From: Porticoccaceae bacterium
GTDB taxonomy: Bacteria > Pseudomonadota > Gammaproteobacteria > Pseudomonadales > Porticoccaceae
Direction: 5' to 3'
Length of the DNA: 54,608 nucleotides
Assembly (NCBI GenBank): GCA_029242085.1
Contig: JAQWUP010000002.1
Location: 1 to 54,608 of the forward strand
The notes beneath the pieces are model-generated. The model made no database searches and had not been told where the DNA came from. It saw only the letters and a list, made by a program, of their open reading frames with translations. The translations under genes were made by a program, and so were the position numbers. Shown here piece after piece: positions 943-5,636 of the stretch (positions within the stretch are counted from its first letter, which is position 1; every line of letters starts with the position of its first letter).

Positions 943-1272
943 TTGCACCAATTTGTACTCGAGGACGTCATTATCTGCCCCTCAATATCAAACAGTTCCA
1001 GCGCAGATATTGAAACTATTTCAGAACCCTGCGTCGACGATATTATTATTGATATTCGCCATCCAGCAGAGGTGGATGCGAGGCCTCTGAATCCGGGTAA
1101 AAACAAGCTCTTGGCTCTGCCGTTCTTTAACCTTGAGCAGCAACTCGGTCAGCTGGATAAAAATCTCTGTTATTTACTTTATTGTGAAAAGGGCATTATG
1201 AGCCGACTTCAGGCCATCTTGATGCGCGAGAAAGGTTTTAACCGAGTTGGCATTTTCAGCGCCAAAATCTAA
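943..1272 (+). CDS. Stand-alone ThiI-type C-terminal rhodanese domain (reduced thiI)
   Basis: The 109-residue protein matches only the C-terminal rhodanese-like domain of ThiI. Visible landmarks are 'DIIIDIRHPAE', 'LLALPFFNLEQQLGQLD', 'YLLYCEKGIMSRLQA' and 'REKGFNRVGIF'. The cysteine of YCEKG corresponds to the persulfide-carrying Cys of ThiI (Cys456 in E. coli). Full ThiI is about 480 residues, with ferredoxin-like, THUMP and PP-loop domains before this one; none of them is encoded upstream here. Homology begins at about 'FVLED', the linker before the domain. The start is a TTG, since an in-frame stop lies at 922-924. The position between glnA and typA is where Pseudomonas carries full-length thiI. 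Inferred role: sulfur carrier for thiazole synthesis, without tRNA 4-thiouridylation. A decaying relic is the alternative. Confidence 0.75.
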   Translation: MHQFVLEDVIICPSISNSSSADIETISEPCVDDIIIDIRHPAEVDARPLNPGKNKLLALPFFNLEQQLGQLDKNLCYLLYCEKGIMSRLQAILMREKGFNRVGIFSAKI

Positions 1273-1409: not shown

Positions 1410-3563
1410 ATGACAAAAGCAGATACGAATACTGTACAGAGCATGGACGCAAATGCTGCCGATTTTGCCTCTCCGTATCCGTCGTTGACCATTGCATTAC
1501 TTCAGCAAAACACCGCCAACTCCAAGGCTGGGTTGGCGCTTTCTGTGGTTGCTGGAATTATGCTGCTTCTGATCAGCCGGCAGCAGCTCCCACCCGATCT
1601 CATTTGGAGTTGGCTGGGTGCTCTCTGTGTCGCCAGCCTAGTACTCTGGCTATGGCTCAACCAGCGGCCATCACCGTTGCTTATCAATGTGACAGCGACC
1701 ATCTGTGCATTATTTTGGGGACTTGCGAGCATCCTGTTTGTCACCTCAGGTCAACTTGAAAATGCACTGCTGGTCGCCGCTATTATTATCGCATTGACTA
1801 CGGCATGGCCCCCGCTGCATATTCAAACAGCGCTGTTTCGTCATCTTTTTTCATTTACCATCTATATCCCTTTGGCCGCCAGCCTCTGCATCCATTTCCC
1901 ACCCCAGAGCCCAATATTTATTGCGCTGCTGAGCATAATTTATATCGCCTTCGACAAAGCCTGTCGCTCTTATCGGCAGAACTTTATTGATAGGGCCCTA
2001 AGTAATCAGCGCGCCGAAGAGAATAGCCAACAGGTGGTTACTACCAGCAAAAAAATCACCAGCCTGATTGAGCAGACGCCGCTGGGATTTATTGAATGGA
2101 ATGAACACCGCGAAATTATTGGCTGGAATCCGGCTGCCACCACTATTTTTGGCTTCAACAAATCCGAAGTTCTCGGTCGCACCACAGATTTTCTGTTTGA
2201 AGATAAAAAGACATTTTTAATGCAGCAGGCCGAACATGATCTGTTTTTATTTGGTAAGGATTTTTCTGGTACTGCGGAGAATATCACCAAAGACGGCACT
2301 AAAATTACCTGCGAATGGAATGAGACACCGCTTTTTGATGATGCCATGAATGTCATAGGCGCCGCGTCGTTTGTCGAGGACGTCACCGATCGCGTCAAAA
2401 TGCAGTCACGCATCAAGCAACAGGCTTACTTTGATCCGCTTACCGGGCTACCTAATCGACACCGGCTGATGGAAGAGTTGAACCGCGTTATTTCCCTGGC
2501 TCAGCGCACACAAAACTTCTGTTCGCTGCTGTTTATTGATCTCGACCACTTCAAAGAAATCAACGATAGTCGCGGCCACCATTACGGCGATCTGGCACTG
2601 ACACTTTTTGCCCAGCGCCTGCGCAAAGTTATTCGTACTCAGGAAACAGTGGCGAGACTCGGGGGTGATGAGTTTGTAGTGCTGCTGGAGAGGCTGGGTA
2701 CCGAAGGGGAAACTGCACGCCTGCAAATCGCTCAGGTAGCTGAAAAGATTATCGATGCCGCCAGCGAACCCTTTGTGATAAAGGGCGAGAAGTTCCAGAT
2801 TAGCTGCAGCATTGGTATTGTCTTTTTTAACGATGGTGCGGCCGATGGAAAAACCATTCTAGAACAGGCGGATCACGCCCTTTACACCATCAAGCGGGAG
2901 GGTAAATCCAATTACTATTTCCATGACCGCAAGCTCTCGCTGGCCATGCAAAAACAGATGGAGTTACTGGAGCGGCTGCGCGACGAGTCCAGAGCCGAGT
3001 CCTTTGTGCCGTTTTATCAGCCAATCCTTAACAGCCAAACCAACTTAATCAATGGCTTGCAGGTGTTTCTGCGCTGGCAAAAACCCGATGGGGACGTTGT
3101 CGAGACCCATGAATTTATTCAGGTGCTGGAATCTGGCTCTATGATTGTGGATATTTCCCTGTCGCTGATTGAACAGGTATGCAAGCAGATTAATCTGTGG
3201 CAAGGACAGGGCCTGTGGCAGGATTCTCAGCGCATATACTTCACCCTGAGCCTGCGCGAACTGGAGCACACCTCTTTTGTCACTCAGGTGCAGGAAATTA
3301 TGCGCCGCTATGGCACCAAACCCAGTTTATTTATGTTCGGTCTGCACACTGAAAGTCTTGGCAAACTCAATGCATCATTACAATTACAGCTTAATCGCCT
3401 CAGTGACATTGGTTGCGGTCTCATTATCGACAATGTCGGCTACCAGAGCCTGCCACTGCAAAAATTGCGCGAGCTGCAGATCGAAACCATCCGTATTTCT
3501 CACCGATTAATGGCCGAGACCAAGGAATTGAGAGCTCGTGGAATCTGGTCAAAGGGCTTATAG
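1410..3563 (+). CDS. Membrane PAS-GGDEF protein with a degenerate, frameshift-truncated EAL domain
   Basis: The 717-residue protein has about five or six membrane segments (residues 40-185), a PAS domain (about 212-327), a GGDEF domain (about 335-505) with intact GGDEF at 418-422, and a partial EAL domain from about 530. It is probably an active diguanylate cyclase. The usual RxxD inhibitory site reads RTQE, so product inhibition is doubtful. The EAL signature is replaced by Gln551-Val-Phe; the NLS position reads TLS, and the DD pair reads DN. The EAL domain is therefore not a working phosphodiesterase. The frame stops at 3563, but the missing end continues in another frame to 3757. The ATG at 1410 has AGGA eight bases upstream. 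Confidence 0.9.
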   Translation: MTKADTNTVQSMDANAADFASPYPSLTIALLQQNTANSKAGLALSVVAGIMLLLISRQQLPPDLIWSWLGALCVASLVLWLWLNQRPSPLLINVTATICALFWGLASILFVTSGQLENALLVAAIIIALTTAWPPLHIQTALFRHLFSFTIYIPLAASLCIHFPPQSPIFIALLSIIYIAFDKACRSYRQNFIDRALSNQRAEENSQQVVTTSKKITSLIEQTPLGFIEWNEHREIIGWNPAATTIFGFNKSEVLGRTTDFLFEDKKTFLMQQAEHDLFLFGKDFSGTAENITKDGTKITCEWNETPLFDDAMNVIGAASFVEDVTDRVKMQSRIKQQAYFDPLTGLPNRHRLMEELNRVISLAQRTQNFCSLLFIDLDHFKEINDSRGHHYGDLALTLFAQRLRKVIRTQETVARLGGDEFVVLLERLGTEGETARLQIAQVAEKIIDAASEPFVIKGEKFQISCSIGIVFFNDGAADGKTILEQADHALYTIKREGKSNYYFHDRKLSLAMQKQMELLERLRDESRAESFVPFYQPILNSQTNLINGLQVFLRWQKPDGDVVETHEFIQVLESGSMIVDISLSLIEQVCKQINLWQGQGLWQDSQRIYFTLSLRELEHTSFVTQVQEIMRRYGTKPSLFMFGLHTESLGKLNASLQLQLNRLSDIGCGLIIDNVGYQSLPLQKLRELQIETIRISHRLMAETKELRARGIWSKGL

Positions 3564-3824: not shown

Positions 3825-5636
3825 ATGTCCATTGAAAACTTGCGAAACATTGCGATCATCGCCCACGTTGACCACGGTAAGACTACGCTGGTTGATAAAC
3901 TTCTGAGTCAATCAGGCACTCTCGATCGTAAAGATGTGGGTTCTGAGCGCCTTATGGACTCCAACGATCAGGAAAAAGAGCGCGGTATTACCATTTTGGC
4001 AAAGAACACTGCTATCAAATGGAATGACTACCGCATCAATATCGTGGACACCCCGGGTCACGCTGACTTCGGTGGTGAAGTTGAGCGCGTTCTATCGATG
4101 GTTGACTCAGTATTACTGCTAGTCGACGCTGTTGATGGTCCTATGCCGCAAACACGTTTCGTTACGTCAAAAGCATTTGAACAGGGTTTGCGCCCAATTG
4201 TCGTTATCAACAAAGTTGACCGTCCGGGCGCTCGTCCTGACTGGGTAATGGACCAAGTATTTGATCTCTTTGATAGCCTGGGAGCCACTGACGAGCAACT
4301 GGATTTTCCGGTTATCTATGCCTCGGCACTCAATGGCATCGCGGGAACCGAGCTCGATGAAATGGCAGAAGATATGACGCCGCTGTATGAGATGATTGTC
4401 GCAGATGTACCCAGCCCCAAGGTGGATATTGATGGGCCATTTCAAATGCAGATTTCGGCACTGGCCTATGACCCCTATGTGGGCGTTATTGGCGTTGGCC
4501 GCATTACTCGCGGTACGCTTAAGCCGGGACAGCAAGTGGTTATTAAGTCCTCCGATGATAAAGAGCGCAAAGGCAAGGTACTCAATGTCAAAGGCTATTT
4601 GGGCCTTGAACAGGTAGAGACAGACTTGGCCGAAGCGGGCGATATCGTCTGTATCAATGGCATCGATGGCCTCGGTATCTCTGACACTCTCTGTGATCCA
4701 GAATATATTGAAGCGCTGCCTGCGCTGAGTGTTGATGAGCCAACGGTAAGCATGACCTTTATTGTTAACAACTCACCTTTCGCAGGTCTGGAAGGCAAGT
4801 ATGTTACCACCCGAAATATTAAAGACCGCCTTGATCAGGAACTGATTCACAACGTGGCCCTGCGTGTTAAACAGGGTGACTCTCCGGATAAATTTATTGT
4901 TTCTGGTCGCGGTGAACTGCATCTGTCGGTACTGATTGAAACCATGCGCCGCGAAGGCTTTGAAATGGGTGTGTCGCGGCCTGAAGTTGTGACTAAGATT
5001 ATCGACGGCAAGGTTCAGGAGCCCTATGAACAGGTGGTGATTGATGTGGAAGACCAGCATCAGGGTTCAGTGATGGAAGAGCTGGGCCAGCGCAAGGCTG
5101 AGCTGACCAATATGGAGCCCGACGGCAAAGGCCGTGTGCGCTTAGAGTTCTCAATGCCATCACGTGGCCTAATCGGCTTCCGTGGCACCTTCCTGACGCT
5201 GACCTCTGGCTCCGGCATTATGACCAGTATCTTTGATAAATATGGTCCGCTTAAAGAAGGCGAGGCCCACAGCCGCCAGAACGGCGCTCTGATCAGTATG
5301 GTTAAGGGTAAAACTGCCGCTTTCGCACTGTTTAATATTCAGGCCCGCGGACGCCTGTTCTTGGGTCATGCTGTCGATGTCTATGAGGGCCAGATTGTCG
5401 GCATTCACTCGCGCAACAATGACCTGGTCGTCAATCCAATTAAGGGCAAGCAGCTAACCAACGTTCGCGCCTCCGGGACAGATGAAGCACTGACCCTGGT
5501 GCCGCCAATCAAGCACACGCTTGAGCAGGCGCTGGAGTTTATTGAAGACGACGAGTTGGTAGAAGTAACTCCTGACAGTATCCGCCTGCGCAAGAAGCTG
5601 TTGACTGAAACCTTGCGCAAGCGAGCCCCCAAGTAA
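3825..5636 (+). CDS. typA: Ribosome-associated translational GTPase TypA/BipA
   Basis: The 603-residue product is a translation-factor GTPase that binds the 70S ribosome and supports large-subunit assembly and stress growth. All G motifs are present: [22 protein letters not shown] and NKVD. The EF-G-like C-terminal part contains '[19 protein letters not shown]' and the BipA-specific end '[13 protein letters not shown]'. E. coli BipA has 607 residues. The open frame extends upstream to 3714, but those residues resemble no BipA and '[18 protein letters not shown]' is the family start, so 3825 is chosen. No strong ribosome-binding site precedes it. It lies downstream of the GGDEF gene with its own candidate promoter. 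Confidence 0.97.

Follow-up and report, generated by a model that had tools for sequence, protein, structure and literature searches.

What keeps a ThiI rhodanese domain that stands alone in a genome? The question is raised by a short gene in a member of the Porticoccaceae (GCA_029242085.1; G000 in our sample, 82.65% complete in 91 contigs), from which a stretch of 54,608 nucleotides, hereafter the window, was analyzed (contig JAQWUP010000002.1). The gene was compared across 50 genomes of the same genus, the SAR92/HTCC2207 group, with members including HTCC2207 (G012), MOLA455 (G013), and SAR92 clade H231 (G018) and H921 (G038), and across a family sample of 112 genomes.

A stand-alone ThiI rhodanese beside glnA

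In profile scans, the frame at 943-1272 (+ strand) was limited to ThiI's C-terminal rhodanese domain. The score with TIGR04271 (ThiI_C_thiazole) was 97.7 bits when the frame was read from 943 and 98.0 bits from 973, against a curated cut-off of 70, and Pfam Rhodanese, the sole Pfam family matched by the encoded protein, scored 26.3 bits (cut-off, 22.2). These scans detected no THUMP or PP-loop family in the frame, and the Pfam scan did not assign the protein to PF01206 (TusA). Judging by the TIGR04271 match, an aligned start site, and selection (see below), the coding sequence most likely spans 973-1272 (+), that is, 99 codons from an ATC at 973. The catalytic (persulfide) Cys is residue 71 of the 99 aa (codon 1183-1185, +), in the loop C-E-K-G-I-M-S, and occupies an invariant column in an alignment of 40 sequences. 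An AlphaFold2 model made with 40 aligned relatives had a mean pLDDT of 87.0. Foldseek returned two matches at E values up to 0.001 with this model and these, like the next-best ones below, were all of rhodanese type, which confirms the fold only; the closest PDB matches by sequence and fold include persulfide reductase domains and single-domain rhodaneses. The gene most likely encodes a functional single-domain sulfurtransferase, formerly the C-terminal domain of ThiI.

The earlier note on this DNA had described a thiI reduced to a rhodanese domain with its persulfide Cys, lacking THUMP and PP-loop upstream and lying in its ancestral slot between glnA and typA. All of this was borne out: TIGR04271 is well over its cut-off, the Cys is invariant in the aligned genus copies, the DNA upstream holds the beginning of an oppositely oriented glnA (5' part at 2-610, -, extending beyond the window edge), and typA (3825-5636, +, with its ATG at about 3825) forms the second flank of a slot in which genera g3, g4, and g6 carry a full ThiI. 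The picture of the slot needs one correction, since a GGDEF/EAL gene (1410-3563, +) intervenes between the rhodanese gene and typA. The latter is broken near its 3' end, where it switches frame at 3527-3563, while in the relative G018 it is a single frame of about 800 aa; the frame change may be genuine or stem from an error in the assembly. Ahead of the rhodanese gene, a TATAAT box (909-914, +) is the putative -10 element of its own promoter. In 28 of the 42 genus loci read, a count made without a chance control, a TATAAT stands 100 to 260 bases ahead of the core, and no full sigma-70 promoter was reported at 909-914.

Compared with the gammaproteobacterial ThiI, the SAR92 protein shares the rhodanese family (TIGR04271), the C-x-K-G-x-M-S persulfide loop, and the slot by glutamine synthetase and typA, but it stands alone, the THUMP and PP-loop domains being gone, as are ThiG and ThiC from 48 of the 50 genus genomes.

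Distribution and origin of the truncation

Across the family, TIGR04271 was over its cut-off in 83 of 112 genomes, 40 of them in the genus, three in genus g2, and 40 in other genera. The matching frames measured 95 to 160 aa in the genus (n = 40) and 99 to 108 aa in g2 (n = 3), versus 486 to 575 aa in 39 of the other genomes and 322 aa in the remaining one (G007). Counting copies that are below the cut-off, broken, or at contig ends (G041, G058, G020, and G024), the stand-alone gene is present in 44 of the 50 genus genomes. It is missing from an intact glnA-typA slot in five (G021, G030, G035, G055, and G060), and G023 falls in neither group, as its assembly lacks typA. An apparent absence in G024 proved to be an artefact, the gene being cut at a contig end.

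TIGR00342, over its cut-off in 39 of the 112 family genomes, reached it in none of the 50 genus genomes and in none of g2, and a second ThiI over cut-off was likewise sought without success in the 50 genomes. In G000, PF02568/TIGR00342 matched only an MnmA-like protein of 370 aa, and that weakly. The suggestion of a natural minimal ThiI therefore stands, the rhodanese-only form being genus-wide: a full-length thiI was found nowhere else in the G000 genome, and the locus is shortened alike in the other genus members, with no sign of a truncation specific to this strain. Since no ThiI with THUMP and PP-loop is over cut-off in the 50 genomes, the known enzyme of tRNA 4-thiouridine synthesis is missing from them.

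The slot itself is well conserved. Among 43 genus loci surveyed for neighbours (G024 not included), 41 extend upstream. Each of these has a divergent glutamine synthetase, which is the usual glnA in 30 and of GlnII type in 11; the other two loci begin at the gene. On the other side typA was found in 40 of the 43, and the remaining three loci end early. In the three g2 loci, GlnII adjoins the gene, again divergently, and typA is absent; the GlnII call rests on 379.7 bits with NF041605, under its cut-off of 500, together with Pfam glutamine synthetase domains over cut-off. The GlnII-type loci, 11 from the genus and three from g2, are L047, L051, L053 to L056, L059, L066, L072, L076, L080, and L086 to L088.

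In a typA tree with nine outgroup rows, the genus and g2 form one group (support, 99), so that one truncation suffices. Within this group g2 nests inside the genus, on long branches, and the shared GlnII is concordant with that position, which may nonetheless be an artefact. A scan of named genomes yielded 181 confirmed relatives. Of the 80 best, 33 were short frames, all in records of SAR92, HTCC2207, MOLA455, Porticoccaceae, or uncultured Pseudomonadales/Cellvibrionales, whereas the other 47 were longer (346 to 883 aa); more distant stand-alone forms may exist. The shortest of these 47 is a 346-aa frame of Candidatus Fukatsuia symbiotica, with the ThiI rhodanese at 6001-6264 of L273.

Selection, and the case against a role in thiamine synthesis

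Selection was assessed on an alignment of 41 genus copies, with G041 in and G058, G020, and G024 out. Within the active-site loop, Cys, Gly, Met, and Ser are invariant in 41/41 copies, as are the His and Pro of the DIRHP motif, with its Arg kept in 40/41. The dN/dS ratio was 0.04 to 0.18 in pairs with dS of 0.2 to 0.9; over the 66 pairs with dS of 0.2 to 1.5, of which the distant ones are unreliable, the median was 0.16 and the highest value, 0.53, involved G041. The rhodanese gene evolves under purifying selection. Non-AUG starts (see below), the decayed copy of G041 (60 to 62 bits with TIGR04271), and the broken frame of G058 might be taken as marks of a functionless remnant in decay, but ratios well below 1, catalytic residues invariant in all 41 copies, and start sites with a Shine-Dalgarno sequence that align across species make this very improbable.

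The earlier note had proposed that the gene may be kept for thiamine; in that role the rhodanese would pass sulfur to ThiS for ThiG. In Salmonella, the rhodanese domain alone suffices for thiazole synthesis (PMC5372745), and two genus genomes, G051 and G052, have both thiC and thiG. These are, however, the only ones: ThiG scored above 300 bits in 20 of the 112 family genomes, yet in just those two of the 50 in the genus, and ThiC was found in the same two. Full-score ThiG and ThiC are lacking in the other 48, including G000 and the single-contig assemblies G037 and G059. Partial ThiG matches of 18 to 29 bits in ten genus genomes (27.9 bits in a 341-aa frame of G000), some of them over the Pfam cut-off of 23, we read as other barrel proteins. 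Even the thi operon of G051 and G052 includes a gene for a ThiF/MoeB-type protein of 370 aa that already bears its own C-terminal rhodanese (44.7 and 38.6 bits). Because ThiG and ThiC are absent, we reject thiazole synthesis as the function; for the genomes without ThiG it is close to refuted, and for the gene as a whole it has scarcely any likelihood left. Annotated under the name ThiI, the gene would suggest a capacity for thiamine or s4U synthesis that SAR92 genomes probably do not have.

A second sulfur pathway is that of tRNA 2-thiouridine, in which the protein could be the carrier that feeds TusE-MnmA instead of TusA and TusBCD. TusA (PF01206) was found in none of the 50 genus genomes, although 19 of the 62 other family genomes have it, and DsrE (TusC/D) was over cut-off in no genus genome, with two weaker matches. 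TusE, in turn, is present in 45 of the 50, and something must load TusE or MnmA where neither TusA nor a TusC/D-type DsrE is found. Nevertheless, TusE is kept in all five genomes that lost the rhodanese gene, and most genomes of genus g14 and both of g8 have TusE without ThiI or TusA. As TusE survives without the rhodanese gene, we do not favour this relay and regard it as unlikely.

Co-occurrence with molybdenum cofactor genes

The absence of TusA bears on the molybdenum cofactor (Moco) as well. In E. coli, MoaD receives the sulfur of IscS through TusA; in humans, MOCS2A is fed by the rhodanese domain of MOCS3 (PMC5372717 for both). For MoeB proteins without such a domain, a stand-alone rhodanese has been proposed, and GlpE and PspE are not essential in that capacity in E. 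coli (PMC2593051). We found MoaE in 40 of the 50 genus genomes and MoeB frames of 246 to 269 aa, too short for a fused rhodanese, in 38. The other MoeB proteins were cut by contig ends (G017 and G035), had a frame of 346 aa (G030), or amounted to the thi-type protein only (G051). No rhodanese was found in the five short MoeB scanned with Pfam (G000, G059, G020, G042, and G024). In G000, G024, G042, and G059, where gene names were assigned by reading translations, the order, to the extent that the available sequence covers it, is moaC-moaD-moaE-(mobA)-moeB-moaB-moeA-moaA; moaE is missing in G000 because mobA is interrupted by the end of the contig. Given a short MoeB and no TusA, the ThiI rhodanese is a natural candidate for the donor. 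Its gene has no physical link to those of Moco.

Presence of the two goes together. Among the 35 genus genomes with a completeness of 85% or more, MoaE was found in 31/31 with an undecayed rhodanese gene (counting G058, whose frame is broken), and MoeB measured 246 to 269 aa in 30 of these and was contig-cut in G017. The Moco locus with short MoeB was found in 0/4 of those that lost the gene (G030, G035, and G060) or have it decayed (G041). Fisher's test, which ignores relatedness, gave p = 1.9e-5, or 6.1e-4 if G041 is counted as having the gene. The 85% threshold was picked after seeing the data; at 90% the counts were 26/26 versus 0/4. Five less complete genomes (G015, G016, G050, G051, and G056; 74 to 82%) have the gene and no detected MoaE or Moco-type MoeB.

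The starred branches of the typA tree force three independent losses of the gene. The first comprises G030 and G035, whose Moco clusters (L176 and L177) have a different order, moeA-moaA-moaC-moaD-moaE-moeB, and are probably acquisitions that replaced the native cluster. In G030, the C-terminal part of the 343-aa MoeB has a weak rhodanese match with the Cys in place (Pfam, 19.8 bits with a cut-off of 22.2; 24 to 26 bits with TIGR04271), while the MoeB of G035 runs off the contig. In the second, G021 (84% complete) has neither the gene nor Moco, both of which are present in its sister G042. In the third, G055 (78%) and G060 (92%) again have neither, and their neighbour G041 (90%) has lost Moco and retains the decayed copy.

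A Pagel-type test of correlated change on the typA tree (46 tips) gave likelihood ratios of 15.6, 15.5, and 13.1 (p = 0.004, 0.004, and 0.011) with loci that were not found treated as unknown, as absent, or as unknown in all genomes below 85%, respectively; the likelihood was custom-written and used one gene tree with few events, some rates being at their bounds. This supports a link between the gene and Moco and does not prove it. The independent events are few and all fall in one clade of small genomes, so that overall genome reduction is a confounder. In G051 and G052 the gene persists despite the rhodanese-bearing ThiF/MoeB-type protein of their thi operon. In g14 (14 genomes), which has no ThiI over cut-off and no TusA, nine genomes have MoaE and a MoeB of 259 to 276 aa; other sulfur donors thus exist, and a short MoeB does not always need the ThiI rhodanese.

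Rhodaneses are versatile, and the persulfide reductase domains and single-domain rhodaneses among the nearest PDB matches would also fit another or more general persulfide role, such as detoxification of sulfane sulfur or a later Moco step (molybdoenzyme sulfuration). Two observations speak against this and favour the MoaD step, namely that the gene is lost jointly with those of Moco and that it is lacking where a MoeB with its own rhodanese occurs; we consider such a role improbable, if less so than the tRNA relay. The MoeB of G030, with a rhodanese of its own where the gene is gone, points to the MoaD-MoeB step in particular.

We infer, for donor, recipient, and chemistry alike, a trans-acting sulfur donor for MoaD-MoeB, a role to which we give somewhat better than even chances. 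The rhodanese would take persulfide sulfur from a cysteine desulfurase, presumed to be IscS, onto its conserved Cys and pass it to MoaD activated by MoeB, a sulfuration that would recharge molybdopterin synthase. Acting in trans, it would do the work that falls to a rhodanese in cis in MoeB fusions or human MOCS3, and to TusA in E. coli. The likeness to MOCS3/Uba4 and to bacterial MoeB-rhodanese fusions lies in this proposed role of persulfide donor to a MoaD-type carrier, but the SAR92 rhodanese is free, would act in trans, and belongs to a different rhodanese family, the G030 fusion scoring just 24 to 26 bits with TIGR04271. With TusA it would share the transfer of IscS sulfur to MoaD, whereas fold and sequence are unrelated and TusA is absent from the SAR92 genus. 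If true, this would show, in a natural setting, a protein domain surviving both known functions of its parent and acquiring a third; the stand-alone rhodanese put forward for MoeB proteins without one (PMC2593051) would also gain a concrete candidate. No published account of a stand-alone ThiI rhodanese in SAR92, or of one as Moco donor, was found in titles and abstract openings, with subscription literature mostly outside the scope of the search.

Apparent AUC, AUU, and AUA starts

The earlier note had begun the gene at TTG 943. In G000 a Shine-Dalgarno-like GAGGA (961-965, +) lies 7 bases before ATC 973 and 4 before ATT 970, and the Shine-Dalgarno energies are -6.0 at ATC 973, -5.9 at ATT 970, and -3.0 at TTG 943. 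As close relatives are without that TTG, ATC 973 (or ATT 970) is probably the start. Four of the 42 genus loci read (G044, G045, G046, and G050) are devoid of ATG, GTG, and TTG from the upstream stop to the core, and another three (G017, G048, and G056) have only a GTG, at codon -9 or -7, without a Shine-Dalgarno sequence. The aligned start site reads ATC in G000, G054, G017, G048, G056, G044, G033, and G057, ATT in G038 and G046, ATA in G032, and ATG in G016 and G018; the sites of G050 (ATT) and G045 (ATC) were aligned separately. Energies at the 13 AUH sites range from -11.3 to -2.6, being weak in G046, G033, and G057; an energy of -6.3 is attained by chance at 5% of all in-frame codons. For G047 no start stood out clearly. 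In G038 the strongest Shine-Dalgarno score of the locus belongs to an upstream ATG (codon -44), and in G054 an upstream GTG (codon -38) scores like the ATC; since both lie on or just past the TATAAT box, we did not take them as starts, although either may be one. From these alignments, initiation seems to occur at AUC, AUU, or AUA in about a dozen species, probably including G000.

AUU is the start codon of two E. coli genes, infC and pcnB, and in infC it is discriminated against by IF3 (PMC9410913). The rhodanese gene resembles them in its apparent AUH initiation behind a Shine-Dalgarno sequence; it differs in encoding a sulfurtransferase and in a predicted start that varies among AUC, AUU, AUA, and AUG between species. 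We tentatively suggest, as a possibility somewhat short of an even chance, that the SAR92 genus shed the catalytic domains for tRNA thiolation and turned the leftover into a dedicated trans-acting sulfur donor for Moco, which part of the genus would make at low dose through AUC, AUU, or AUA starts discriminated against by IF3.

Gene finders restricted to ATG, GTG, and TTG would miss the start or misplace it in about a dozen species. The apparent AUC, AUU, and AUA starts of the 13 genus genomes are found at 961-975 of the window and in L049, L060, L061, L065, L071, L072, L073, L075, L077, L081, L082, and L083.
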